This document shows, in pieces, positions 4,800 through 34,869 of a DNA stretch of 64,000 bases (its first letter is position 1; each line of letters opens with the position of its first letter). Made by a program: the position numbers and the translations under genes. Where the stretch lies: positions 1 through 64,000 of the forward strand of contig DXEG01000020.1 of NCBI GenBank assembly GCA_019115125.1, in the 5' to 3' direction. The stretch comes from Candidatus Blautia faecipullorum (GTDB taxonomy: Bacteria > Bacillota > Clostridia > Lachnospirales > Lachnospiraceae). Under the pieces are notes generated by a model that worked only from the letters and a program-made list of their open reading frames with translations, ran no database searches and was not told where the DNA came from.

Positions 4800-6191
4800 A
4801 TGGAGATTTTTAGGGCTGTTTACAATATACTATGGGGAGATCTCATACGGATTCCTCTTCCGGGAGGAAGCAGTCTGGGGCTTTCGCTGCTTGTACTGAT
4901 CCTGATTCCGGCGGGACTCTATTTTACGGTAAGGACTCGTTTCCTGCCATTCCGGCTTTTTCCTGAAATGGTGCGCGTGACACTGGAGAATAACAAAACC
5001 TCCGGTAAAGACGGGATTTCTGGTATCCAGGCGCTGATCATTTCTACTGCCTGCCGTGTGGGGATGGGCAATCTGGTAGGCGTGGTCGCCGCGATATCCG
5101 CCGGAGGAGCGGGAGCCGTTTTCTGGATGTGGGTAATTGCCCTTCTGGGCTCCTCCACAGCGTTTATTGAGGCCACTCTGGCGCAGCTATATAAAGAAAA
5201 AGATCCTTTATACGGCGGCTACCGGGGAGGGCCGGCATATTATCTGCATCATTTGTTCGTGCGTAAGGACAGCAGGCGAAAGAAGTCCGTGACCGCCGTG
5301 CTGTTTGCGCTTTCCGGTCTGATCTGCTGGTGCGGGATCAGCCAGGTAACGGGAAATTCTATCTCCTCCTCCTTTGAAAACGCCTTTCATATACCGCCCC
5401 TGTACTCCACGATCGTTCTTGTAGCGGCGGCGGCCATCATTGTCCTGAGGAAAAACGCGACGGTGAAGGTGCTGGATATCATGGTGCCTGTCATGGCTGC
5501 CTGCTATTTTTTTATTACCATCTTTATTATTGTAAAAAACGCGGGTCAGCTTCCGGCAGTTTTTGAGCGTATTTTTGCGGAGGCTTTCGGTTTCCGGCAG
5601 GCCGTGGGAGGAGGCATCGGCGCGGTGATCATGAACGGAGCGAAGCGCGGCCTTTTTTCCAACGAGGCTGGCTCCGGCTCCGCTCCATGCGCCGCGGCTG
5701 CGGCGGACATCAGTCATCCTGCCAAGGAAGGACTGCTGCAGGCATTGGGCGTATTCATTGATACGATCGTTCTGTGCAGCTGCTCCGCTATGATCATGCT
5801 CCTGGCTCCCCAGGATATGACAAAGGGTCTGGAGGGAATGGATCTTCTGCAGACGGCCATGCAGTATCATCTGGGCGAATTTGGAGTGATCTTCATAGCG
5901 CTGATCCTGTGGCTGTTCAGTTTTTCCACTTTCCTGGGGATTCTGTTTTATGCCAGATCAAATGTCGCGTACCTATTCGGAGATAACTGGCTTTCACAGA
6001 CTCTTTACAAGATTCTGGCGCTGGTCATGCTTTTTATCGGAGGGCTGGCGGCTTATCAGTTTGTGTGGGATCTGGGAGACGTGGGCGTGGGTCTGATGAC
6101 GGTATTTAATATGATCGCGCTGTTTCCGCTGGCGCCGCGGGCTCTGGCGTCGCTGAAGGATTATGAGAAAAATGAAATGAAGAAAAAATAA
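4800..6191 (+). CDS. Alanine/glycine:cation symporter family (AGCS) protein
   Basis: 463 aa integral membrane protein of the AGCS family, which imports alanine or glycine with sodium. About ten hydrophobic segments are visible. Family signatures include GVVAAISAGGAGAVFWMW (residues ~95-112) and the NGAKRGLFSNEAGSGSAP block (~278-295), where the NEAGxGxxP residues are hallmarks. The ATG at 4800 follows GAAAGGA. It is downstream of blaR1 by 60 bases without a clear terminator, so read-through is possible. The substrate is inferred from family only. Confidence 0.9.
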   Translation: MEIFRAVYNILWGDLIRIPLPGGSSLGLSLLVLILIPAGLYFTVRTRFLPFRLFPEMVRVTLENNKTSGKDGISGIQALIISTACRVGMGNLVGVVAAISAGGAGAVFWMWVIALLGSSTAFIEATLAQLYKEKDPLYGGYRGGPAYYLHHLFVRKDSRRKKSVTAVLFALSGLICWCGISQVTGNSISSSFENAFHIPPLYSTIVLVAAAAIIVLRKNATVKVLDIMVPVMAACYFFITIFIIVKNAGQLPAVFERIFAEAFGFRQAVGGGIGAVIMNGAKRGLFSNEAGSGSAPCAAAAADISHPAKEGLLQALGVFIDTIVLCSCSAMIMLLAPQDMTKGLEGMDLLQTAMQYHLGEFGVIFIALILWLFSFSTFLGILFYARSNVAYLFGDNWLSQTLYKILALVMLFIGGLAAYQFVWDLGDVGVGLMTVFNMIALFPLAPRALASLKDYEKNEMKKK

Positions 6192-6422
6192 TTTATCCCG
6201 TCTGTATAATACAGGATTTCTTTTAAAGAACAGTATGAATGAAAAGGATCTGCAGGATTACAAATGGCAAAACAGATTGTGATAAATTTAGAACAAACCA
6301 TATGTTTAGAGTGGCAGCCTGTGTTCTGAAAATGAAACATACGCTGCTGAAAAACTTGCAGCAGCGGGAATTCTGAACAGAATCCAGAGCTGACCATGAA
6401 TCTGACAGGAGGGATCTGGCTT

Positions 6423-6977
6423 ATGAAAAAAATAAAGAAGAAAGCATGGGTATTGGCGGTATGCGGCGCGGCGACGGGAATCCTGGCGGCGTCTCCTGTC
6501 TCGGCGGACTCTCAGACAGAGACATCGGCAGCCTTTGCCACAGAGGATATTCATGGAGAGGAATATACAGAGAAAATATTTGAGGACGCGGATCTGACGC
6601 TGGTAAACGTGTTTGCCACCTGGTGCGGCCCCTGTATCCGGGAGGTGCCGGAGCTTCAGAAGCTGAGCGAGGAGATGAAAGAGGACGGCGTGCAGGTGAT
6701 CGGTTTTGTGATGGATACCGGAACGGTAGAAGAAACGGACGAGGAGACGCTGGAGACCGCGAAGCTTCTGGCAGAGATCGCTGAAGCGGAGTATCCCTTC
6801 CTGATTCCGGACGAGGGGCTTATGAACGGCAGGCTGTCCGGGATCCAGGCTTATCCTGAAACATTTTTTGTCAACAGCGAAGGCGAAATTGTAGGGGATA
6901 CCTATGTGGGCAGCCGCGATCTTGACGGGTGGAAAGAGATTGTTGAGCAGGAGCTTGCGGCGTTGGAGGAAGAATGA
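6423..6977 (+). CDS. TlpA/ResA-like thioredoxin-fold protein
   Basis: 184 aa exported thiol-disulfide oxidoreductase. A signal peptide (MKKIKKKAWVLAVCGAATG, cleavage around SADS) precedes a thioredoxin fold with the active site WCGPC (C68 and C71). The cis-proline region is AYPETFFVNSEGEIVG. The ATG at 6423 is chosen over an in-frame ATG at 6396 because AGGAGG lies at ~6407-6412. It is first in a compact cluster with a CXXC microprotein and a NapH-like ferredoxin membrane protein. The likely role is extracytoplasmic redox chemistry linked to membrane electron transfer. Confidence 0.88.
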   Translation: MKKIKKKAWVLAVCGAATGILAASPVSADSQTETSAAFATEDIHGEEYTEKIFEDADLTLVNVFATWCGPCIREVPELQKLSEEMKEDGVQVIGFVMDTGTVEETDEETLETAKLLAEIAEAEYPFLIPDEGLMNGRLSGIQAYPETFFVNSEGEIVGDTYVGSRDLDGWKEIVEQELAALEEE

Positions 6978-7005
6978 TTTTCCGGCATATATGAGGATAT
7001 AATTC

Positions 7006-7194
7006 ATGAAGAAAAAAGAAAAAGTGTCTCTTTCTTCTCTGTCGGCCCGTCTGAATGAGCGGGCGTCCCTTTTTGGCGTCCTTGCCGCGTCCGCGGGGCT
7101 GGGAATGATGGCGTATGGGATTTTTCGGGGAGAAATGTCCGTAGTCCTGGAAAAGGCTGTGAGAATCTGTATGGAGTGTATAGGAATTGGATAA
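7006..7194 (+). CDS. CD1871A-type CXXC motif small protein
   Basis: 62 aa protein with a basic start, one hydrophobic helix (FGVLAASAGLGMMAYGIF) and the conserved C-terminus ICMECIGIG. This matches my recollection of the CD1871A family of small CXXC proteins found next to thioredoxin-like and 4Fe-4S membrane proteins in Clostridia. It overlaps the next gene by eight bases, implying translational coupling. It may pass electrons or hold a cofactor between its neighbours; no biochemical role is known to me. Confidence 0.75.
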   Translation: MKKKEKVSLSSLSARLNERASLFGVLAASAGLGMMAYGIFRGEMSVVLEKAVRICMECIGIG

Positions 7195-8077
7195 AAAGAC
7201 AAACGAGTGGAAACGACACAGGCTTCAGATCCTGTGGGCGCTGCTGACCAACAGCTATCTTGCGGGCTTCGCAAAAGGAAAAATCTATCAGGGAAAAATC
7301 AAAAATCTGTGCGTTCCCGGGCTGAACTGCTATTCCTGTCCGGGCGCTTTGGGCTCCTGTCCCGTAGGCGCTCTGCAGGCTGTGGTCGGAAGCTGGAATT
7401 TTAAGTTCGCGTTTTATGCTGCAGGATTCCTGATGTTTATTGGAGCTCTGATGGGGCGCTTTGTCTGCGGCTGGCTCTGCCCCTTCGGGCTTATACAGGA
7501 GCTGCTCCATAAAATCCCTCTCCCTAAAAAAATACATACCTTCCGGGGAGACCGTTTTCTGCGCGGGCTGAAATATATTATTTTTCTTGTTTTTGTGATT
7601 CTTCTGCCCATGTTCGCGGTGGATATGCTTGGACAGGGAGCGCCGTATTTCTGTAAACTGATCTGCCCTGCAGGGACACTGGAAGGCGGGATCCCGCTGG
7701 TTCTCTTGAACGATGCCATGCGCGGCGCGGTAGGATGGCTTTATGCATGGAAAAATGTGCTCCTGGCGGTGATCCTGATTCTTTCTATGGTGATTTACCG
7801 GCCTTTTTGTAAATATATCTGCCCTCTGGGGGCGGTTTATTCGGTGTTCAATCCTATTTCCATATTTCGGTACAGAGTAGATAAAGCTGTATGCACCGAC
7901 TGTGGCGCATGTGCAAAGGTGTGCAAAATGCAGGTGGATCCGGTGAAACACCCGAATCATCTGGAATGTATCCGATGCGGCGCATGCAAAAGGATCTGTC
8001 CCGCAGGAGCGATACGCTTTTCTGTGAAGCCGGATCCAGTGAAAAGTCATGGAACCCGCCCATGTCAGATTAAATAA
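7187..8077 (+). CDS. NapH/CcoG-like polyferredoxin membrane protein
   Basis: 296 aa 4Fe-4S membrane protein. Hydrophobic helices are interrupted by the CxxxCP motifs of the NapH/RnfH-like class (CGWLCPFG, CKLICPAG, CKYICPLG). The C-terminus has two ferredoxin clusters (CTDCGACAKVC and CIRCGACKRICP). The likely role is moving electrons from the quinone or ferredoxin pool across the membrane to the upstream thioredoxin partner. The start is TTG 7187 inside the end of the CXXC gene. The family is certain; partner and donor are inferred. Confidence 0.85.
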   Translation: MDKKTNEWKRHRLQILWALLTNSYLAGFAKGKIYQGKIKNLCVPGLNCYSCPGALGSCPVGALQAVVGSWNFKFAFYAAGFLMFIGALMGRFVCGWLCPFGLIQELLHKIPLPKKIHTFRGDRFLRGLKYIIFLVFVILLPMFAVDMLGQGAPYFCKLICPAGTLEGGIPLVLLNDAMRGAVGWLYAWKNVLLAVILILSMVIYRPFCKYICPLGAVYSVFNPISIFRYRVDKAVCTDCGACAKVCKMQVDPVKHPNHLECIRCGACKRICPAGAIRFSVKPDPVKSHGTRPCQIK

Positions 8078-8138
8078 AGGCTGATTTTTTCAAAAATAGA
8101 AAATTAAATATAAGAATTAAAAAATTCAGAAAAATATA

Positions 8139-8167
8139 TTGACAAATAAAAGAGACAGGAATATAAT
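8139..8167 (+). promoter_or_regulatory. Consensus promoter of the initiator tRNA gene
   Basis: TTGACA (8139-8144), a 17-base spacer and TATAAT (8162-8167), preceded by a very A-rich stretch that could act as an UP element. It lies 23 bases before the tRNA. Confidence 0.9.
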
Positions 8168-8189
8168 CTTTATTATGATAGTTATGTAA

Positions 8190-8263
8190 CGCGGGGTGGA
8201 GCAGTCCGGAAGCTCGTCGGGCTCATAACCCGAAGGTCGCAGGTTCAAATCCTGTCCCCGCTA
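8190..8263 (+). tRNA. Initiator tRNA-fMet (CAT)
   Basis: 74-base cloverleaf with acceptor CGCGGGG/CCCCGCT and anticodon CAT in the loop CTCATAA. The anticodon stem has three consecutive G:C pairs (GGG/CCC), and the 1-72 pair is mismatched (C-T). Both are marks of an initiator rather than an elongator tRNA. The T-arm GGTTCAAATCC is intact. CCA is not encoded. Confidence 0.95.
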
Positions 8264-8273
8264 TCTGCGAAAG

Positions 8274-8310
8274 GCGTCATGTTTCATTCATGTGGGACAT
8301 GGCGTTTTTT
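8274..8310 (+). terminator. Intrinsic terminator after tRNA-fMet
   Basis: Stem CGTCATGT/ACATGGCG (8275-8282 with 8297-8304, one G-T pair) followed by TTTTTT. Confidence 0.85.
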
Positions 8311-8333
8311 ATATTATAGGAAAGGTAAAAGCT

Positions 8334-9014
8334 ATGCGGATTTTAATTGCTGAGGATGAAAGAGATCTGAACGCTCTTTTGAAGAGAAGACTGGAAAATC
8401 AGAAATACAGCGTGGACGCCTGCTTTGACGGGGAGGAGGCGCTGGATTATCTGGCGCTTACGGATTATGACGCCGTGATTTTAGACATAATGATGCCGAA
8501 GAAAAACGGACTGCAGGTGCTGAAATACATCAGGGCGAATAAGAAGAATACGCCGGTACTCCTTCTGACAGCCCGGGACAGCGTACAGGACAGGGTGACA
8601 GGGCTGGACGCGGGAGCGGACGATTATCTTGTGAAGCCCTTTGCCTTTGAGGAGCTCCTGGCCCGTATACGTGTGATGCTTAGAAAAAATTCAACTGCGG
8701 AAATAAAGACAAATATTTTTACGATTTCCGATCTCACCGTGGATTTCAATACCCAGAAGGTATACCGGGGCGGCCGGGAGATCAATCTTTCCAGCCGGGA
8801 GTTTTCCATCCTCAGATATTTATGCATGAACAAAGGGATCGTCCTTTCCAGAGATAAGATCGAGGAGCATATCTGGAATTACGATTATGCGGGAGGCTCC
8901 AACGTGGTGGATGTTTATATCCGTTATCTGCGGAAAAAAATCGACGAAGGTTTTTCTCCCCGGCTGATCCACACGGTGCGGGGCGCCGGATATGTCTTAA
9001 GGGAGGAGAAATGA
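8334..9014 (+). CDS. OmpR/PhoB family response regulator
   Basis: 226 aa. A receiver domain (1-~115; acidic pocket E7 D8, phospho-acceptor D51 in VILDIMMP, Lys in LVKPF) is followed by an OmpR-type winged helix (SSREFSILRYL to RGAGYVLREE). The ATG at 8334 follows GGAAAGG; longer in-frame readings enter the tRNA terminator. Its stop overlaps the kinase start (ATGA), so the two form a coupled two-component pair. Targets are unknown; the FUSC gene downstream is a plausible one. Confidence 0.93.
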   Translation: MRILIAEDERDLNALLKRRLENQKYSVDACFDGEEALDYLALTDYDAVILDIMMPKKNGLQVLKYIRANKKNTPVLLLTARDSVQDRVTGLDAGADDYLVKPFAFEELLARIRVMLRKNSTAEIKTNIFTISDLTVDFNTQKVYRGGREINLSSREFSILRYLCMNKGIVLSRDKIEEHIWNYDYAGGSNVVDVYIRYLRKKIDEGFSPRLIHTVRGAGYVLREEK

Positions 9015-10402
9015 AAAAACTGCCGTTAAAATGGAAGCTTACAATCCTTTATACAGCGTTTATGACGGTTCTGACCGTAGTGATGCTGAGCGTCCTGCTT
9101 TCCCTGAGCAGCAGCGAGATCCTTTCTTCAGTAGAACAGAAAATGGAGGAAAAGGTATTCGATGTGTCGGAGGAAATCGAATGGAGTGGGGAGCGGCTTC
9201 GGATCGATTCGGATTTTTATGAGGTGGATAATGGAATTTATCTCTCCGCCTACGATAAAAACGGGAATCTGGTCGGGGGAAGGATCCCCTATGAATTTAC
9301 GGAGGATGTTCCTCTGGAGGAGGGGCTTCACAAGCTGTCGTCAGGGGGGATCCGGTGGGATATCAGGGATGCGGTTTCCCGTATTCCCGGCTATGGAACT
9401 GTCTATGTACGGGGAATTACTTCGATCACAGACGCGGAGAGCAGCCTGAAGATCACGATCCGTCTGTCTCTCATCCTGTTTCCGCTGATGGTCGTCCTGG
9501 CGGCTGTTCTCGGGTACTTTTTTGTGCGGGGAGTATTCCGGCCGGTATCGGATATCACTGCAACCGTCCGGGAGATATATGAGAAGGAGGATCTGTCCAA
9601 AAGGATCGGCCTTACAGGTGAAAAAAATGAGATTTATGTGATGGCGGAAACCTTTGATCTGATGCTGGAAAAACTGGAGGATTCTTTTGAAAAGGAAAAA
9701 AGGTTTACCTCCGACGCTTCTCATGAGCTTCGCACGCCGGTAGCTGTGATCCTCTCCCAGTGCGAATATCTTCTGGAGGAAACGGGCATATCCGGTGAGG
9801 AGAGGGCGGCAGTGGAGGCTGTTCAGCGAAAGGCCCGCAGTATGTCGAAAATGATCTCCCAGCTTCTTTTTCTTTCCAGAGCGGATCAGAGTCGGCAGGC
9901 GGTACACAGGGAGCTTTTGGATCTGTCCCTGCTTACAGAGATGGCGGCGGAGGAGCAGGAAGAGCCCGCGGCAGAAAAGAAAATACGGATTGAGAAGGAT
10001 ATACAGGAGGGCGTTGAAGGCTATGTAGATGAGACGCTGTTTATCCGTCTGTGGATGAATCTGATCGGGAATGCTATTTCCTATGGAAGAGAGGGCGGGT
10101 GGCTGAAGGTCGGTCTCAGAGAAAAAGACGGGACTGTTCAGGGCTGCGTGGAGGACAATGGTATTGGAATAGCGAAAGACCAGCTCCCTCATATATGGGA
10201 AAGATTTTATCAGGCGGACGCTTCCCGTTCCGGAAAGGAAAACACGGGCTCCGGCTTGGGACTTCCTATGGTGAAATGGATCGTCGAGGCCCATGGAGGC
10301 GAGATTTCAGTGGAGAGCGAGCCGGGAAAAGGAACCAGCTTTCGTTTTTCCTTTCCCCTTGCTAAAGGAGAAATACCGGAGAACTCTGAACCGGGAGCTT
10401 GA
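9011..10402 (+). CDS. Sensor histidine kinase (HisKA/HATPase)
   Basis: 463 aa membrane kinase. A first membrane helix (~12-32), an extracytoplasmic sensor region and a second helix (~152-175) lead to HAMP. HisKA has H238 in SHELRTPVAVI, and the HATPase boxes are N (LWMNLIGNAISYG), G1 (DNGIGI) and G2 (GSGLGLPMVKWI). It is partner of the regulator at 8334, overlapping it by four bases. The ligand is unknown; the kinase resembles the BaeS/CusS type in layout. Confidence 0.93.
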   Translation: MKKLPLKWKLTILYTAFMTVLTVVMLSVLLSLSSSEILSSVEQKMEEKVFDVSEEIEWSGERLRIDSDFYEVDNGIYLSAYDKNGNLVGGRIPYEFTEDVPLEEGLHKLSSGGIRWDIRDAVSRIPGYGTVYVRGITSITDAESSLKITIRLSLILFPLMVVLAAVLGYFFVRGVFRPVSDITATVREIYEKEDLSKRIGLTGEKNEIYVMAETFDLMLEKLEDSFEKEKRFTSDASHELRTPVAVILSQCEYLLEETGISGEERAAVEAVQRKARSMSKMISQLLFLSRADQSRQAVHRELLDLSLLTEMAAEEQEEPAAEKKIRIEKDIQEGVEGYVDETLFIRLWMNLIGNAISYGREGGWLKVGLREKDGTVQGCVEDNGIGIAKDQLPHIWERFYQADASRSGKENTGSGLGLPMVKWIVEAHGGEISVESEPGKGTSFRFSFPLAKGEIPENSEPGA

Positions 10403-28166: not shown

Positions 28167-28217
28167 CGCAAATAGTATTCCGTGAAAGAGGTTTCGTATA
28201 GAGAATGGAGGATGCTT

Positions 28218-29576
28218 ATGAAAAAAAGAAAAGTTTATGCGGCAATAGGAGCGCTGGCGGCTGCGGCGATGCTGGGAAGCTCCGGCTGCGAACAGATGGT
28301 GAAATCGGCGGTGGTGGAGGAATACAGCGGCGACAGCGGAAGTGCCGGCCTGACCGGAAGCAGTCAGGCGGAGGATACGGGGGAGATTATACAAAAAACA
28401 GTGTCCCAGCAGGTTGAGGCCCCGGAAATATATGAAGCCACGCTGACCACAGAGCTTAGAAGCGCGGGGCGGAAGAATAAGGAAGAGCCTATGAAATTCA
28501 CCCTTACAGCCAGGGCGCCTGTAGAAGTCCCCCAGACAGACGCGTTTTTGATAAAGGGCGTTAAAAGGGCCTCCGGTTCCATAGAGGCGGTTGAAAAAAT
28601 GCTCTATGTGATCGGTGAGGCTCAGGCTTTGGATCAGCAGGAAGCCCCCATTTCATTGGATCCTGATGAGGAAAGCGGAGAGGGAACCTTTGCGGCGGCG
28701 GATATTCCCTACAGGTATGCATATGACACAGGCTCCGGCGGACAGTATTTTAGCTGCTGGTTTGACGCCTCAAAGATGCCGGAAACAGAGCAGGATGCGG
28801 AATTGTGGCAGTCGTCCCTGTTTGAGCAGGCTGCCGCAGGAAACGGGCGAGTGGAAAGATCACAGGCGGAGGAGCTTGTAGAAAAGATGGGGATTCAGGA
28901 TTTCCATGTCGTCTCAGAACTTCACGAGAACATGCCCCGGGACGGAAAAAACGGCCCTGTTGCCCGGGATGTCTTTTACTTTGAAAGGGCGACAGAGGGC
29001 ATCCCGGTAAACTATGTGCAGGAGCGCCAGCTCCCTGTTTATGAGAAAGCGGCTTCTTTTATGGATGAGGACGGAACCGTCACACAGGCGCAGGAGAAAG
29101 CATGGATGCAGGAGAGTCTGTCTGTGGAGTACGCGGCAGGCGTGCTGCGCGGCTTCCAGTACAGCGGCAGTCTGGAAATTACAGATCTGTCCGACGAAAA
29201 ACAATTCCTTCTTCCCTTTGCGGAGATTAAGGATATCTTTGAAAAGACGATAGCTGTGCAGATGATGTCGGAGGAAAATCCCTTCTCCCTGTCGTCTGAG
29301 GACGGAGGAAGCTATACCCGTTATCCCTCCCCGGATGCGGACTCCGTGGAAATGACGATTACAAAGGTAAGGCTTGGCTACATGAGAATAAGAGAGGAGG
29401 GGGACAGCGAAAGCGGGCTTTTGATCCCGGTCTGGGATTTTTATGGAGAATGGACGGCGCAGATATCAGGAGAAGACGGAACGGCAGGGACGGCCGCCCT
29501 GGAGGAGGAATACGTCCCCATGCTGACTATTGACGCCAGAGACGGCTCCGTCATACAGAGGAAGATGGGGTGGTAA
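28218..29576 (+). CDS. Putative lipoprotein, DUF6034-like
   Basis: 452 aa secreted protein. The signal peptide MKKRKVYAAIGALAAAAMLG ends in SSGC, an imperfect lipobox, so lipid anchoring is likely but not certain. The mature part is acidic, with no enzyme motif I recognise. Layout and composition recall DUF6034 proteins of Lachnospiraceae (recollection, not a search). ATG 28218 follows GGAGGA. The last 36 bases and the downstream flank form the left copy of the 91-bp repeat bounding the AT-rich island. Confidence 0.6.
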   Translation: MKKRKVYAAIGALAAAAMLGSSGCEQMVKSAVVEEYSGDSGSAGLTGSSQAEDTGEIIQKTVSQQVEAPEIYEATLTTELRSAGRKNKEEPMKFTLTARAPVEVPQTDAFLIKGVKRASGSIEAVEKMLYVIGEAQALDQQEAPISLDPDEESGEGTFAAADIPYRYAYDTGSGGQYFSCWFDASKMPETEQDAELWQSSLFEQAAAGNGRVERSQAEELVEKMGIQDFHVVSELHENMPRDGKNGPVARDVFYFERATEGIPVNYVQERQLPVYEKAASFMDEDGTVTQAQEKAWMQESLSVEYAAGVLRGFQYSGSLEITDLSDEKQFLLPFAEIKDIFEKTIAVQMMSEENPFSLSSEDGGSYTRYPSPDADSVEMTITKVRLGYMRIREEGDSESGLLIPVWDFYGEWTAQISGEDGTAGTAALEEEYVPMLTIDARDGSVIQRKMGW

Positions 29577-29631
29577 AAACAGAACATGAAAAAAGAACAT
29601 GTTTCTTGATTTTTTATCATAGTGGAAAAAT
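29541..29631 (+). repeat. Left 91-bp direct repeat bounding the AT-rich island (attL-like)
   Basis: Covers the end and stop codon of the lipoprotein gene plus 55 bases downstream, including a weak terminator-like AACATG...CATGTT stem with TTTTTT. It is identical to 34779-34869 except at 29600 (T here, C at 34838). The flanks diverge immediately on both sides. Confidence 0.95.
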
Positions 29632-30038: not shown

Positions 30039-30404
30039 TCAGTATTTATGCTGGTTAGCGCATTCCATATCTTGTTGTTCTAATAAAGCATCAATGATTT
30101 TTCTAATAGTAATTAATGTTGTTGGAGTACATTTCTTTAATTTGTTTGCAATTTCTGTATTTATTAATTCATCACTTTTGGCATATGGCGTATCTAAGAG
30201 AAAAAAGTCCAGATTTTTTTCTAGGACATTTGAAATTTTTAGCAACATAGAAAGACTAACTTTCGTTTGTCCGATTTCTATATGGCTCATATGGTTGTTG
30301 GAGCAACCAACTAAAGCGCCTAAGTCTGCTTGGCTTAATCCTTTTTCAAGACGTGCTGTTTTAATGCGTTGTCCGATTTTAATATAATCTATTTCTGGTA
30401 ACAT
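30039..30404 (-). CDS. Xre/HipB-like helix-turn-helix regulator of the island
   Basis: 121 aa. An N-terminal Cro/CI-type HTH (IGQRIKTARLEKGLSQADLGALVGCSNNHMSHIEIG) is followed by a short helical tail. ATG 30404 is chosen because GGAG at 30414-30417 is nine bases upstream; two earlier in-frame ATGs (30413, 30419) overlap that site. It is divergent from the five-gene operon, with a set of GATGCAA-type half sites between them, so it is probably the island's own repressor or activator. Confidence 0.85.
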   Translation of the reverse strand: MLPEIDYIKIGQRIKTARLEKGLSQADLGALVGCSNNHMSHIEIGQTKVSLSMLLKISNVLEKNLDFFLLDTPYAKSDELINTEIANKLKKCTPTTLITIRKIIDALLEQQDMECANQHKY

Positions 30405-30670
30405 TTCAATCATCTCCATATATCTTTTAGCACTGTTCGATTTATAGATCTACATTGTGATTTTTTAGGGTGGAGTACATTTATTTTTAACCTGAGCAAG
30501 TCATTATTAGATTGAAATTCCTGTTAAGACAATTAAAAGTCTAATAAATTTAGCGTTTAAGTTAACTAATTAAATGTAAAAAGAAAAGATAAGAAATTTG
30601 TTTTGGGTATTACTTATTTCTACTTTTGTATATTATAGGATAGTTAAAGGTGCATCACAACAAACTAAAA

Positions 30671-30844: not shown

Positions 30845-31267
30845 ATGTTAGAAGATGCAATAAAGAAACTAGATAAACTAAATAAAGCACAATTAGAAGA
30901 ATATATTGATAAAATGAAAAATAAAATCAATTTAGCAGAAAACCGTTTTTTGTTTGGATATGCTATGCTTAGATTGAATAGATTGGATTTAGCGTATGAT
31001 TATCTTAAAGAGTTTATCGAAAATAAAGATTCTACTATTTCGTTATCTAAAAAATATGACCTTATACCAGATGGTTGTGGTGGATTTACTCTTGTTGAAA
31101 GTGATGGAGCAGCATGTGATGGGCTTTGTGGATGTTGCATTTGTCTTTTGCCTGTATTTATGACGAAGAATATTGGTCTGCCAGATGAGTGTTGTATGTG
31201 GGTGTACGCACCTTGTAAATGGCTGTGTTGTAATCCTTGTATAGATTTTTTGCAGGGTAATCCATGA
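30845..31267 (+). CDS. Small TPR-like protein with cysteine-rich tail
   Basis: 140 aa, not recognised as a named family. Residues ~1-65 are helical and look like a tetratricopeptide pair (FLFGYAMLRLNRLDLAYDYLKEFI). The C-terminal ~60 residues hold twelve cysteines in clusters (CDGLCGCCIC, ECC, PCKWLCCNPC), which could bind zinc or Fe-S, or be lipidated. Codon use is AT-rich like the rest of the island. ATG 30845 follows AGGTAGGGGA; a TTG at 30782 would extend it without a ribosome site. It is first gene of the operon. Confidence 0.75.
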   Translation: MLEDAIKKLDKLNKAQLEEYIDKMKNKINLAENRFLFGYAMLRLNRLDLAYDYLKEFIENKDSTISLSKKYDLIPDGCGGFTLVESDGAACDGLCGCCICLLPVFMTKNIGLPDECCMWVYAPCKWLCCNPCIDFLQGNP

Positions 31268-31293
31268 GTTTAGGGGAAGGATAACGGAGATAA

Positions 31294-32187
31294 ATGTGGG
31301 GATACGTAATAGCCGATAAAATGAATATGTTAATAAAAGATTATTATACATATCATAATGTATATTGTAGTTTATGTGATGCAATTGGAAAAAGATATGG
31401 GCTTTTTTTTAGATCCATGCTAAGTTATGATATTGCTTTTTTGGTAATATGCTTGGACTCCATAGAGCAGGAGGAAGAACGAAGAGAATTTCGTTGCCCG
31501 GTGAATCCGTTTAAAAAGAGAGTATCTAGTTTCTCACAGCGTTCTTTAAATTACGGCGCATTTATTAATTATTATCTTGTATTAAAAAAACTAGAAGATG
31601 ATATAAGAGATGATAATTCAAAAATAAAAAGAATTATATATTATGTTCTAAAAAAAAATCGAAAATATCAAAAAGACTATCTCGTTTACCATGAGAAATT
31701 AGAGAAATATGAGGCATATTTAAGGAAACTGGTAAAATTAGAGGATGAGAGTACAGGGTTTGATGATCTTACAAATACATTTGGAAATTACTTTGCGGGA
31801 CTTTTTGTAGCTTATTTAGATATTTTTGAAATAGGTGACTCTGCGTTTTATAATTCATTTTTTCTATTTGCTTTCAATTTAGGTAAGTGGATTTATTTAA
31901 TGGATGCATATGAGGATTTTCATAAAGACATAAGGAGAAACAAATATAATTTGATCTCAGATATGATTAAAAGAGATGATTCAACAAATAAAATTGCTGT
32001 ACACAAAAAAATTCAGGGTATCAATGGAATGCTAATTTACAATATGCGAAAAGAACTAGACAATATAGTTTTTGATAAACATAGAGCTATTATTGAAAAC
32101 ATTATTGGATACGGTTGTTTTCTTACTTACAGAAAAATCTTAGAGAACCAATATCCGGAAATAAGAAGTGAAATTCTGAAATCATAG
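31294..32187 (+). CDS. DUF5685 family protein, isoprenoid-synthase-like motifs
   Basis: 297 aa, mostly helical. The start (MWGYVIADKMNMLIKDYYTY, then YCSLCDAIGKRYG) matches DUF5685 as I know it. Two acidic motifs stand out: DDIRDD at residues 102-107 and DAYEDFHKD from 204, the latter in KWIYLMDAYEDFHKDIRRNK. Their form and ~100-residue spacing recall the two Asp-rich motifs of head-to-head prenyl synthases (squalene/phytoene synthase type; ~120 apart there). That an isoprenoid-synthase fold is present is my inference, not established. ATG 31294 follows ACGGAGA, 26 bases after the Cys-rich gene. Confidence 0.72.
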   Translation: MWGYVIADKMNMLIKDYYTYHNVYCSLCDAIGKRYGLFFRSMLSYDIAFLVICLDSIEQEEERREFRCPVNPFKKRVSSFSQRSLNYGAFINYYLVLKKLEDDIRDDNSKIKRIIYYVLKKNRKYQKDYLVYHEKLEKYEAYLRKLVKLEDESTGFDDLTNTFGNYFAGLFVAYLDIFEIGDSAFYNSFFLFAFNLGKWIYLMDAYEDFHKDIRRNKYNLISDMIKRDDSTNKIAVHKKIQGINGMLIYNMRKELDNIVFDKHRAIIENIIGYGCFLTYRKILENQYPEIRSEILKS

Positions 32188-32212
32188 ATACGCTATAATC
32201 AGGGAATAGATA

Positions 32213-32830
32213 ATGTTGAAGTTTGAGGGAATGATTTTATCAGTAATATATGTGGTGTTAGGTTTTGCAGTGTGTAGCATATTTGTATCAATTACTGCGG
32301 ATAAATTTTGTGGCAGAAAACTACTTCATATATTAATGGCAAATTGGTGGTTTATAAGATTGAGATACATGTCAGAGCATTTGCTTATTTTAGGACCATT
32401 ATTATTTGTGATAATAAATAGTGTATATAGTTATAAAAAAGACAGCGGAAATATGGGAATGCCATTGTTCGCGGTAGCGTTATCGATATTTAGTTTTGCT
32501 ACAGTTTTTGATGACAAATATTTATTACCATCAACGATTGCAGTTTTAGTATTAGGTTATGCGGATTCGGGGGCAGCCTTGGCAGGCAGAATATATCAAA
32601 AAAAGAATAAGTTGGAGTTTAAAAAAAGTTCAGTAGGATTGATAGCGTTTTTTCTTATAACAGTGGTAACAGTTGTTGCCGTATTGGGAGAATACCACGA
32701 GCAGTTTCATACGGTGAAAATAATTTGCTTTTCCTTATTTCTAGCTTGTTCTGAAAGATGGATTTTTCCAAAGTATGATAACTTGGTTGTACCATTGATC
32801 GCATTTTTTCTATTTTACAAATTTTATTAG
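32213..32830 (+). CDS. Polyprenol/phytol kinase-like membrane protein (VTE5/dolichol kinase type)
   Basis: 205 aa with about six membrane helices. Two features match the CTP-dependent dolichol/phytol kinase family: the early RKLLHI motif (in FCGRKLLHILMANWW) and the later YADSGAALAGRIYQKKN followed by KKSSVGLIAFF, equivalent to the GDxxAxLxGxxxG...KSxxGxxAFF block of those enzymes. Such proteins phosphorylate prenols such as phytol or dolichol at the membrane. It sits directly before a DUF92 gene, the same pairing of functions as plant VTE5 and VTE6. Family assignment is moderate; the substrate is unknown. Confidence 0.65.
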   Translation: MLKFEGMILSVIYVVLGFAVCSIFVSITADKFCGRKLLHILMANWWFIRLRYMSEHLLILGPLLFVIINSVYSYKKDSGNMGMPLFAVALSIFSFATVFDDKYLLPSTIAVLVLGYADSGAALAGRIYQKKNKLEFKKSSVGLIAFFLITVVTVVAVLGEYHEQFHTVKIICFSLFLACSERWIFPKYDNLVVPLIAFFLFYKFY

Positions 32831-32860
32831 TGGTAAAGTAAACGGGAGATTACTAAGGTA

Positions 32861-33616
32861 ATGCTATTGAACTTTTTTGTAAATATAATGGCTGGTATGA
32901 TTGCGTATAGGCACCGCTTCTTGAGTAAAAAAGGCACATTTATGGCTTTTGTAATAGGAATTATAGTTTTTCAAATGAGTAGAAAAAGCTATATTTATTT
33001 GATGTGTTTCTTTATGTTTACAGTGATGATCGAACATTTTCTTGCTAAGACAAAAAGAGATAGTTTTAGAACAGCTAAACAAGTCATATGTAATAGTCTG
33101 CCCGCATTCTTAGTGCTTTGTGTATACGCTTATGTGAAACAAGAAAAATATTTGCTTATATATACATGTTTACTTAGCAGTAGTTTTGCTGATAGTATTG
33201 CTTCGGTTGTTGGCGGGAATTATGCAAAGAGGGTATATTCTGTTTTATCATTACAGGAAGTGGAGCGTGGGTTATCTGGTGGAGTAAGTTTAATTGGCAC
33301 AGTTTCTGGTGCATGTGCAACGTTTGTAATGGGGGTAATTTATTCTCTTTCTAATCAGTGTACAAATATACAGCAAATTATATGTATTGTTGTATCGGGA
33401 ACTATTGGGATGGTTTTTGATAGTGTGCTTGGAGCATCCCTCCAGAAGAAATATAAATGTCGTGTATGTGGAAGAGTAACGGAAAATAATCAACAATGTC
33501 AATATTGTGGAGGAGAAAAGCTGCTGATACATAAATACCAATTTATGAACAATAATGAAGTGAATTTAATTTCAAACATTATTTTATTAATTTTATTGAT
33601 ATGTATTTTAAAATGA
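32861..33616 (+). CDS. DUF92/VTE6-like membrane protein (prenyl-phosphate kinase family)
   Basis: 251 aa with about six membrane helices. The DUF92 signatures are clear: LSKKGTFMAFVIGIIVF, SSSFADSIASVVGG, GLSGGVSLIGTVSG, MVFDSVLGASLQKKYKC, then a zinc-ribbon-like pair (CRVC, CQYC) and a closing NNNEVNLISNII. The plant DUF92 protein VTE6 converts phytyl phosphate to phytyl diphosphate, so this one may make a prenyl diphosphate from the product of the preceding gene. Rare in gut Clostridia to my knowledge. Confidence 0.82.
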   Translation: MLLNFFVNIMAGMIAYRHRFLSKKGTFMAFVIGIIVFQMSRKSYIYLMCFFMFTVMIEHFLAKTKRDSFRTAKQVICNSLPAFLVLCVYAYVKQEKYLLIYTCLLSSSFADSIASVVGGNYAKRVYSVLSLQEVERGLSGGVSLIGTVSGACATFVMGVIYSLSNQCTNIQQIICIVVSGTIGMVFDSVLGASLQKKYKCRVCGRVTENNQQCQYCGGEKLLIHKYQFMNNNEVNLISNIILLILLICILK

Positions 33617-33704
33617 GAATGGACACTAGAAAAACTGTTATAAATTTTTTTGATTTTTATATTGAGCCATATTATTAACAAAAATATAGGAAGGGGAAAG
33701 ACGC

Positions 33705-34688
33705 ATGGAAAAAGAAAAAACAATTGAGTATTTGCAGGATGTGTATAATTTGCAAATACAACAACGGATTGCAGAGAATGCTTTGACTAAAATTGATGCT
33801 GATAGAAATAAGCAGATAGAAGATATTAGATTTAGTGAGAAAAAAAGAACAGTTAAATATGTAAGCCAATATATATGGATTATAGCCTTTATTACTGGTA
33901 TATTATTTTTGGGATTTTGTGTTTTTTTAAACGGGTTATATAATAAAGAGCTCAGCCAAACAGAAAATAGAGTTTCCTATTATTCTAATTCAGAAACCTA
34001 TGACGAATTCTATCTTAATGGCGCGAAAAATGATTTGAGTAGAGCTCAAAACGACCAAAAATATTTTTCGATATCTTACGCACTAGGTATTATAGTAATA
34101 GTATTTTCGGTAATAGCTTACATACTAACAGAAATAAAAAAACGGAATGAGCAAAAATTAACTAATGCTTATGTAATGTTGATTCACGAAAAATCTCAGA
34201 ACAAATTGGAAATACTAAACAAAAATCGTTTTGTTTTAGCAAATTCCAAAAGTGAAATTGATGATGCTTTGAATAAACTATACTCTCTTAACATCATTTA
34301 TAAAAAATATAGAGATATGGAAGCCTGTGGTATGTTTCTTGAGTATTTGTTATCAGGAAGAGCTCAGGCGCTTGAGGCTACACAAGGCTATGTTGGGGCA
34401 TATTCGCTTTATGAAGATGAATTATTTCGGGGCGTGATTAGAGATAAATTGGATCAAGTTTTACAAAATCAGCGTATCCTTATAAAAGGACAAAATGAAA
34501 TAAAAGCTTCTTTGCATTCCATTGAAAATGGAATTGAGCGTGTTTGCAACGAGTTGTCTAATATAAAAGGAGGAATAAATAAGTTGACGCAAGCTACAGA
34601 AGTAAATAATTTTTATAATGCCGTTGCAGCATATAATACCATGGTAACAAGACGGATTACGGAACATTATTATGATAATAATATATAA
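33705..34688 (+). CDS. Coiled-coil membrane protein of unknown function
   Basis: 327 aa. An N-terminal coiled coil (~1-45) is followed by a membrane helix (~52-75), a short loop (~76-120), a second helix (~125-147) and a long C-terminal coiled coil. The C-terminal motif (NKLYSLNIIYKKYRDM, then FLEYLLSGRAQAL and GAYSLYEDELFRGVI) belongs to a widespread group of uncharacterised Firmicutes proteins with a similar domain. It is last in the operon; AGGAAGGGGAAAG precedes ATG 33705. It may scaffold the cassette at the membrane. Confidence 0.75.
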   Translation: MEKEKTIEYLQDVYNLQIQQRIAENALTKIDADRNKQIEDIRFSEKKRTVKYVSQYIWIIAFITGILFLGFCVFLNGLYNKELSQTENRVSYYSNSETYDEFYLNGAKNDLSRAQNDQKYFSISYALGIIVIVFSVIAYILTEIKKRNEQKLTNAYVMLIHEKSQNKLEILNKNRFVLANSKSEIDDALNKLYSLNIIYKKYRDMEACGMFLEYLLSGRAQALEATQGYVGAYSLYEDELFRGVIRDKLDQVLQNQRILIKGQNEIKASLHSIENGIERVCNELSNIKGGINKLTQATEVNNFYNAVAAYNTMVTRRITEHYYDNNI

Positions 34689-34778: not shown

Positions 34779-34869
34779 GACGGCTCCGTCATACAGAGGA
34801 AGATGGGGTGGTAAAAACAGAACATGAAAAAAGAACACGTTTCTTGATTTTTTATCATAGTGGAAAAAT
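34779..34869 (+). repeat. Right 91-bp direct repeat bounding the AT-rich island (attR-like)
   Basis: A second copy of the lipoprotein gene's last 36 coding bases, stop and downstream 55 bases, 90/91 identical to 29541-29631. It is detached from any gene, so it is the by-product of the insertion or duplication. The unit from one repeat to the next is 5,238 bp. Confidence 0.95.

Follow-up and report, generated by a model that had tools for sequence, protein, structure and literature searches.

A candidate mobile cassette pairing a DUF5685 protein of predicted isoprenoid-synthase fold with VTE5-like and DUF92 proteins in Candidatus Blautia faecipullorum

Enzymes of the VTE5/VTE6 type have been identified only in plants and cyanobacteria, according to the available text of a 2022 review (PMC9782597). 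Transfer of prenyl groups to peptides is the task of two bacterial peptide-prenyltransferase families in the accessible part of a 2026 review (PMC13290415), in which the enzymes resembling trans-isoprenyl diphosphate synthases (trans-IDS), including ComQ, modify Trp and carry a Gln just before their second motif. Here, we describe a gene cassette at positions 30845-34688 of a 64,000-nucleotide stretch of Candidatus Blautia faecipullorum DNA (contig DXEG01000020.1 of assembly GCA_019115125.1; the whole stretch is referred to as the window). In the open reading frame (ORF) list of the window, five ORFs on one strand encode, in order, a Cys-rich protein, a DUF5685 protein, a VTE5-like protein, a DUF92 (VTE6-type) protein, and a coiled-coil membrane protein. 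We propose that the cassette makes a prenyl diphosphate and that the DUF5685 protein transfers the prenyl group, most likely to the Cys-rich partner, a proposal that we hold to be evenly poised between right and wrong. It builds on the observed gene content, conservation, predicted fold, recurrence, and insertion of the cassette; the enzyme class itself rests on prediction, and we infer the catalytic steps, the prenol, and the acceptor.

The proposed prenyltransferase is the DUF5685 protein (297 amino acids, positions 31294-32187, forward strand; Pfam PF18937, E 9e-61). When its AlphaFold2 model (predicted local distance difference test [pLDDT] score, 94.8; predicted template modeling [pTM] score, 0.92) was compared with the PDB using Foldseek, the best 50 of 735 matches (E up to 10) were isoprenoid synthases or prenyltransferases, including MoeN5, octaprenyl, geranylgeranyl, and farnesyl diphosphate synthases, and Ord1, with 37 of the 50 at probability 1.00 and a best E of 2.6e-3. 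An ordinary (core) DUF5685 protein from Ruminiclostridium (locus L092), modeled at a pLDDT of 95.2, gave the same picture: the best 50 of 640 matches were enzymes of isoprenoid-synthase fold, 42 of them at probability 1.00, and the best E was 1.4e-3. PcIDS1, Sat1646, ACP-HEPS2, and Rv2173, which occur among the PDB matches, were counted here as presumed enzymes of this fold. In the alignment with the MoeN5 structure, identity is 9%, the TM scores are 0.55 and 0.60, the root mean square deviation (rmsd) is 6.2 Å, and the probability is 1.00. On the basis of these models, DUF5685 is predicted to be a protein with a class I isoprenoid-synthase fold; among the best 50 matches of each of the two models, the fold search thus pointed to the kinship with prenyl synthases suggested by the initial annotation of the locus, and not to an unrelated fold.

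Conservation was assessed in two sets of DUF5685 sequences. In eight sequences collected by family or protein search, with no motif used, C25, C28, D46, C68, D102, D106, E150, Y201, D204, D208, D212, and N219 are constant. The same residues are constant in a set of 77 (the window sequence and 76 loci from a motif scan), except for D212, which is kept in at least 90%; since the scan pattern included Y201, D204, and D208, the constancy of these three in the larger set is by construction. The scan returned at least 597 stretches, at least 581 of which were confirmed, and the best 80 were used. The first Asp-rich motif, D102xxxD106 (codons at 31597-31611, forward strand), lies within DDIRDD (residues 102-107), and the second, D204xxxD208xxxD212 (31903-31929, forward strand), begins with DAYED (204-208), both as first annotated. 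In the model, helices 82-107 and 183-207, both long, have the two DxxxD motifs at their C-terminal ends, which is where such motifs are expected. The invariant Cys residues are encoded at 31366-31377 (C25xxC28) and 31495-31497 (C68), again on the forward strand.

The two genes downstream would supply the substrate. The VTE5-like membrane protein (205 amino acids, 32213-32830, forward strand; proposed prenol kinase) matches no Pfam family and has one weak chance match in NCBIfam, and its close relatives are likewise named as kinases by neither database. Its VTE5-like character, first proposed from sequence inspection, is supported by a score of 91 bits against a profile built without the window protein, the best of 200 shuffles reaching 7.5 bits; the profile rows are VTE5-type relatives, mostly the N-terminal halves of VTE5-DUF92 fusions. 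Searches with a VTE5 profile against the PDB and with the VTE5 half against plasmids gave no match. The window protein keeps R35-K36-x-x-H39, E181, and D189-N190. R-x-x-x-H, E, and D-N are present in 13 of 13 VTE5-type rows and K36 in at least 90% of them, and the RKxxH motif has the same spacing as the R29-K30-H33 triad that the available text on PfPolK describes (PMC10849223). The adjoining DUF92 membrane protein (251 amino acids, 32861-33616, forward strand; proposed prenyl-phosphate kinase) matches PF01940 with 162 bits (E 2e-47; cut-off, 27.5), so that the initial assignment of this gene, like that of DUF5685, is borne out; against TIGR00297 it scores 93 bits, below the cut-off of 205.85. 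It is the sole DUF92 match of the source genome. In the phylum of the window, VTE5-like and DUF92 parts are often fused into proteins of about 480 to 500 amino acids.

The neighbors of DUF92 were surveyed at 30 loci (29 fetched by nonrandom choice, some of them on short contigs, and the window). Isoprenoid enzymes adjoin the kinase pair or DUF92 in 10 of the 30. Enzymes of the squalene synthase/phytoene synthase (SQS/PSY) family directly adjoin DUF92 in six loci (PF00494, E 7e-57 in L056), five of which also have a CrtN-like desaturase; DUF5685 does so in three (the window, L054, and L155), and UppS-like enzymes are found in two, alone in L055 and together with DUF5685 in L054 (PF01255, E 2e-77). 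The presence of either SQS/PSY or DUF5685 beside the same kinase pair suggests that DUF5685 stands in for a known prenyl-coupling enzyme.

This arrangement also gives rise to the main rival explanation, namely that DUF5685, in the manner of squalene/phytoene synthase or MoeN5, joins prenyl diphosphates to one another or to a small lipid to yield a membrane terpenoid or prenylated lipid, the Cys-rich protein being an accessory. It would account for SQS/PSY occupying the same position at those six loci, for the UppS gene adjoining the L054 cassette, and for the fact that the top PDB match of the cassette DUF5685 model, MoeN5, is a phosphoglycolipid prenyltransferase in the accessible part of the source (PMC7839719). 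However, neither a CrtN-like nor an SQS/PSY gene was found next to any of the three DUF5685 cassettes, DUF5685 has no profile similarity to the four SQS/PSY enzymes tested, and a Cys-rich partner occurs at nearly every DUF5685 locus read. Nor does PF00494 appear among the Pfam matches of DUF5685 at E up to 1. We therefore rate lipid condensation as unlikely.

Some of the surveyed loci deserve mention in their own right. The loci with DUF92, mostly accompanied by VTE5, beside SQS/PSY are L056, L057, L060, L061, L168, and L172; with the desaturase in five of the six, they are likely carotenoid-type clusters fed by prenol salvage. The SQS/PSY gene of L057 is divided between two ORFs. In L055 (genome G320, positions 5324-9623; 33% G+C), a VTE5-DUF92 fusion lies beside two UppS-like cis-prenyltransferases. 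A Cys motif in DUF92 was considered as a mark of the cassette and rejected, as it also occurs in five DUF92 loci lacking DUF5685 (L158, L164, L166, L167, and L169).

The first gene of the cassette (30845-31267, forward strand) encodes the proposed acceptor, a protein of 140 amino acids with 12 Cys residues, all within the last approximately 65 residues and including CxxxCGC. It belongs to no Pfam or NCBIfam family above the cut-off; thus, of its initial description as a Cys-rich TPR-like protein, the Cys richness stands and the TPR repeats are not confirmed by Pfam. Elsewhere in the source genome, a second, ordinary DUF5685 gene is followed by that of a J-domain protein that matches TPR weakly and whose C terminus is rich in Cys. 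This is the common arrangement: across 80 DUF5685 loci from named genomes, mostly of Clostridia and some of Erysipelotrichaceae, a J protein with a Cys tail adjoins DUF5685 in 77, one locus (L087) having none and two contigs ending. All 77 J proteins have at least 4 Cys within their last 35 residues, compared with 38 of 877 other ORFs, and 9 of the 12 listed among these 38 are a zinc-ribbon gene from these loci. Apart from their last 40 residues, the J proteins have a median of 0 and a maximum of 4 Cys. Cys is found within the last four residues of 59 of the 77, with 27 ending in -CC and 16 in CxCx.

The other two cassettes open with a small predicted Cys-rich ORF that has a ribosome-binding site, a CxxxCGC motif, and a Cys-dense end: one of 54 amino acids (L155, 1481-1645, GTG start) and one of 52 (L054, 12730-12888). 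Both had escaped notice because of length cut-offs. At least 5 Cys within the last 25 residues were found in 30 of the 2,095 small ORFs of the loci (some of which overlap), 18 of the 30 being the ends of J genes, and CxxxCGC was found in four, two of them J tails. SPASM and M50 proteins are known from peptide modification, and both occur in the cassettes of genomes G069 and G504 (SPASM domain, 37.6 and 30.7 bits against a curated cut-off of 27; M50 type, 39.1 and 28.9 bits against 27.2). Features that may hint at a cluster for ribosomally synthesized and posttranslationally modified peptides (RiPPs), namely the 52- to 54-amino-acid ORF, SPASM, and M50, occur in G069 and G504 but not in the window, which has its 140-amino-acid first gene instead. 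The Cys-rich partners share composition and position, from which common descent does not follow. The new observation is the presence of a Cys-rich partner at nearly all of the DUF5685 loci read, and this recurrence points more toward prenyl transfer to a protein or peptide than toward phytol, a host prenol, or a membrane terpenoid, the substrates or product suggested at first.

So many Cys residues could also mean that DUF5685 and its partner form a metal or Fe-S center with a chaperone-like role, the fold being kept without prenyl chemistry and the kinases being neighbors by chance or for another purpose. C25, C28, and C68 are invariant in the 77 sequences and lie outside the search pattern, the tails are dense in Cys, the core partner is a J-domain protein, and some SPASM domains are known to bind Fe-S clusters. 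Scaffolding, however, needs none of the Asp residues, of which D102 and D106 are equally invariant and D204, D208, and D212 are kept in 8 of 8 sequences, and the kinase pair accompanies DUF5685 in as many as three families, all of which makes a metal center quite improbable to us.

DUF92 is uncommon in the surrounding taxa: in overlapping draws from the order, the class, and the phylum, it exceeded its cut-off in 13 of 392, 9 of 391, and 45 of 398 genomes, respectively. DUF5685 was looked for in 64 genomes that encode a DUF92-like protein (19 plus 43 plus G000 and G069), excluding five with weak, subthreshold matches (G053, G105, G224, G376, and G829). DUF5685 exceeded the cut-off in seven of the 64. 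In three of these (G000, G069, and G504), which belong to three different families of the class, the DUF5685 and kinase genes are adjacent; in the other four, DUF5685 and DUF92 are far apart or on different contigs. Thus, the adjacency of DUF5685 to both kinase-like genes recurs in two more genomes of other families, in agreement with the cassette originally annotated. Its distribution is patchy: among 48 genomes from the family of G069, DUF92 was found in G069 alone, and among 51 from the order of G504, in G504 alone. A divergent HTH_3/XRE gene lies directly upstream of all three cassettes. The kinases of the three cassettes group in a tree (88/89, below the star threshold). The cassette DUF5685 proteins fail to group in a tree of 43 rows, in which every second core row was used (approximately unbiased [AU] test, P = 0.008), so the partnership may, judging from the sequences, have formed twice. 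A single origin of the cassette DUF5685 proteins was considered and rejected on this tree; the window row is a long branch, and hence this result is not relied on.

The core form of DUF5685 is far more common. DUF5685 is present in 55 of 59 relatives of the same genus, in which the core form is near-ubiquitous, and, elsewhere in the order, in 8 of 38 genomes. It was not confirmed in any viral contig. A phage origin was considered and dropped because two “phage” records hold bacterial genes and the core DUF5685-J pair: L034 and L037 (MT835850.1 and MT835652.1), deposited as “UNVERIFIED: Bacteriophage sp.,” contain bacterial-type genes and resemble bacterial contigs. Likewise, L035 (NZ_AP023421.1), a 504-kb “plasmid” record, has ispD, ispF, cdaA, gmk, priA, and fmt around its DUF5685-J pair and is chromosome-like. 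Core DUF5685 is often preceded by the gene for a small membrane protein that carries a zinc ribbon at its C terminus (e.g., L003, 6151-6561); by a simple motif count, this holds for 22 of the 67 loci in which upstream sequence is available.

The five genes initially described, whose intergenic gaps are 25 to 30 bp among genes 1 to 4 and 88 bp ahead of gene 5, are part of a larger unit. It includes an XRE/HTH_3 regulator gene divergent from the cassette (30039-30419, reverse strand; Pfam HTH_3, E 9.5e-12) and ends at two copies of a 91-bp direct repeat found by repeat search (left edge, 29541-29631; right edge, 34779-34869; both forward strand; 99% identity; spacing, 5,238). The left copy is the 3' end of a lipoprotein-like gene (28182-29576). 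The fifth gene (33705-34688, forward strand) encodes the coiled-coil membrane protein of 327 amino acids, which has no Pfam or NCBIfam family above the cut-off. AT richness was correctly noted at the outset, the G+C content being 30.3% in the insert and 49.2% outside. The G504 cassette is AT rich too (29 to 32% against about 50% G+C); that of G069 is not. In three relatives of the same genus (L179 to L181), the flanking genes are adjacent (identities of 71% for a sensor kinase, 48 to 49% for the lipoprotein-like gene, and 92 to 93% for a binding protein), the insert is absent, and a single place matches 33 to 45 bp of the 91-bp repeat at 91 to 94%, which indicates that the window has gained a unit of about 5.15 kb by insertion. 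The six-gene unit, consisting of the XRE gene and the five genes, therefore appears from its sequence context to be a horizontally mobile cassette. None of the six genes of the insert encodes an integrase, proteins 1 and 5 of the cassette have no match in viral contigs or plasmids, and no exact direct repeats (at least 18 bases, more than 2 kb apart) surround the other two cassettes in the stretches examined.

An AT-rich, patchily distributed island with flanking repeats, an XRE regulator, and a coiled-coil membrane protein could instead serve in antiphage defense or other conflict, with the prenyl genes acting as a toxin or membrane-damaging effector. We regard this as very improbable, since the five genes have no PADLOC match at E up to 1, only the helix-turn-helix (HTH) protein matching (regulator models), and since the core form of DUF5685 is so widespread in the genus.

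For the proposed transfer of a prenyl group to a Cys-rich partner, the following sequence of steps can be envisaged. The VTE5-like protein would convert a prenol to the prenyl phosphate, and the DUF92/VTE6-type protein would add the second phosphate to give the prenyl diphosphate. DUF5685 would ionize the latter via Mg bound at its two DxxxD motifs, and the prenyl group would be transferred, most likely to a cysteine of the co-encoded Cys-rich partner as acceptor: the 140-amino-acid protein in the window, the 52- to 54-amino-acid peptide in the two other cassettes, and the Cys-tailed J-domain protein in the common chromosomal form. The SPASM protein would modify and the M50 protein process the product in two cassettes, the cis-prenyltransferase would elongate the prenyl chain in one, and the XRE repressor would regulate all three. 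Core DUF5685 would use the prenyl diphosphates of the cell, and the mobile forms would bring their own supply. Prenol activation followed by condensation or transfer, as first suggested for this locus, is thus partly supported. A broader and more tentative idea, possible but in our view with the balance somewhat against it, is that DUF5685 is a cysteine-directed protein or peptide prenyltransferase of isoprenoid-synthase fold, unrelated to the eukaryotic farnesyltransferases, whose common substrate is a cysteine-string J protein of many Clostridia that is prenyl anchored to the membrane, the mobile versions carrying their own Cys-rich substrate and kinases. In being anchored, this J protein would resemble its eukaryotic cysteine-string counterpart, which is held at the membrane by palmitate.

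Several observations weigh against prenyl transfer to cysteine by this cassette. (i) The structural similarities are modest: in the best 50 matches listed for each model, E values range from 1e-3 to 5e-2, none being below 1e-3, and query TM scores range from 0.25 to 0.63 (mostly 0.4 to 0.6) with rmsd values of 4.6 to 18.8 Å in the listed alignments, and both models were built from the same 77 rows and are not independent. Thus, DUF5685 would at best be a distant, new branch of the isoprenoid synthases. Sequence search of the PDB gave nine weak matches, among them designed helical proteins and prefoldins, and none was convincing. In addition, hhalign of the 77 DUF5685 sequences against four SQS/PSY enzymes gave a probability of 0.2%, so that the suspected kinship with squalene/phytoene synthases is not supported at the sequence level. 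(ii) In place of the GDG seen in 11 of the 12 other rows, the VTE5-like protein of the window has YADSG, and it contains neither GTVYY nor a variant of it; its activity may therefore be altered or lost. (iii) Twenty of the 30 DUF92 loci have none of the isoprenoid enzymes searched for, and the VTE5 and DUF92 profiles match no ORF in 76 core DUF5685 loci (flanks up to 8 kb; ORFs hidden beneath longer ones could escape). (iv) The J-protein profile was trained on tailed J proteins (the first 67, the last ten of the 77 being found with it). The first protein of the cassette in the window was rejected as a J-protein homologue, its score of 0.8 bits falling within those of its own shuffles. When its last 65 residues are shuffled, CxxxCGC appears in 4% of cases, and when the last 19 residues of the G069 ORF are shuffled, in 5%; the two 52- to 54-amino-acid ORFs, both predicted, match each other weakly (E 0.098). 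(v) The Cys tails and C25/C28/C68 fit metal binding too.

In the library searched, DUF5685 is named in a single paper, as one of the domains in hypothetical proteins of C. difficile. No such system was found among titles and abstract starts on VTE5/VTE6/DUF92, bacterial polyprenol kinases or protein prenylation, J-domain proteins with Cys or prenyl groups, ComQ, new isoprenoid-synthase families, and RiPP prenol kinases, a scope outside which most subscription journals and bioRxiv lie. The placement of DUF5685 in the isoprenoid-synthase superfamily, together with its Cys-rich partner, offers a testable idea for an abundant gene pair, namely native bacterial protein lipidation. Should this idea hold, the two bacterial peptide-prenyltransferase families counted in the 2026 review would be joined by another, and the occurrence of prenol-kinase genes in organisms other than phototrophs would be easier to explain. 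The cassette hints at an undescribed bacterial route for attaching prenyl lipids to proteins or peptides.

Compared with known systems, the proposed role of DUF5685 most resembles that of ComQ (which modifies the Bacillus ComX pheromone), Ord1, PalQ, and ChrPC, in which an enzyme of isoprenoid-synthase type has a small peptide or protein as its substrate; the PDB matches listed for the cassette DUF5685 include structures of Ord1. The trans-IDS-like peptide prenyltransferases thus set a precedent for this fold prenylating a peptide. Unlike in the ComQ group, the partner of DUF5685 is Cys rich, and DUF5685 keeps its two DxxxD motifs and C25/C28/C68. The Gln that precedes the second motif in ComQ-type enzymes is absent, L-M standing before D204 in the window, and the other two cassettes have a Gln directly after the first Asp of that motif (DQLDD). 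Neither 52- to 54-amino-acid peptide contains a Trp that could serve as a ComQ-type acceptor. The available text on ComQ mentions no kinases beside it (PMC13290415). MoeN5 of moenomycin biosynthesis prenylates a phosphoglycolipid, as stated in the accessible part of PMC7839719. We know of no Cys-rich partner of MoeN5. The clusters of SQS/PSY (PF00494), a CrtN-like desaturase, and VTE5-DUF92 in the same phylum have a class I prenyl enzyme next to this kinase pair, too; they differ in that no sequence similarity of DUF5685 to PF00494 and no desaturase beside DUF5685 were found. The kinase pair itself is like that of VTE5/VTE6 phytol salvage in plants and cyanobacteria, and like PfPolK, in its proposed two-step prenol activation, its DUF92 family, and its RKxxH motif. 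It differs in residing in Bacillota, which we take to be of anaerobic type where they bear the cassette, and in being carried on an insert together with DUF5685 and a Cys-rich partner.

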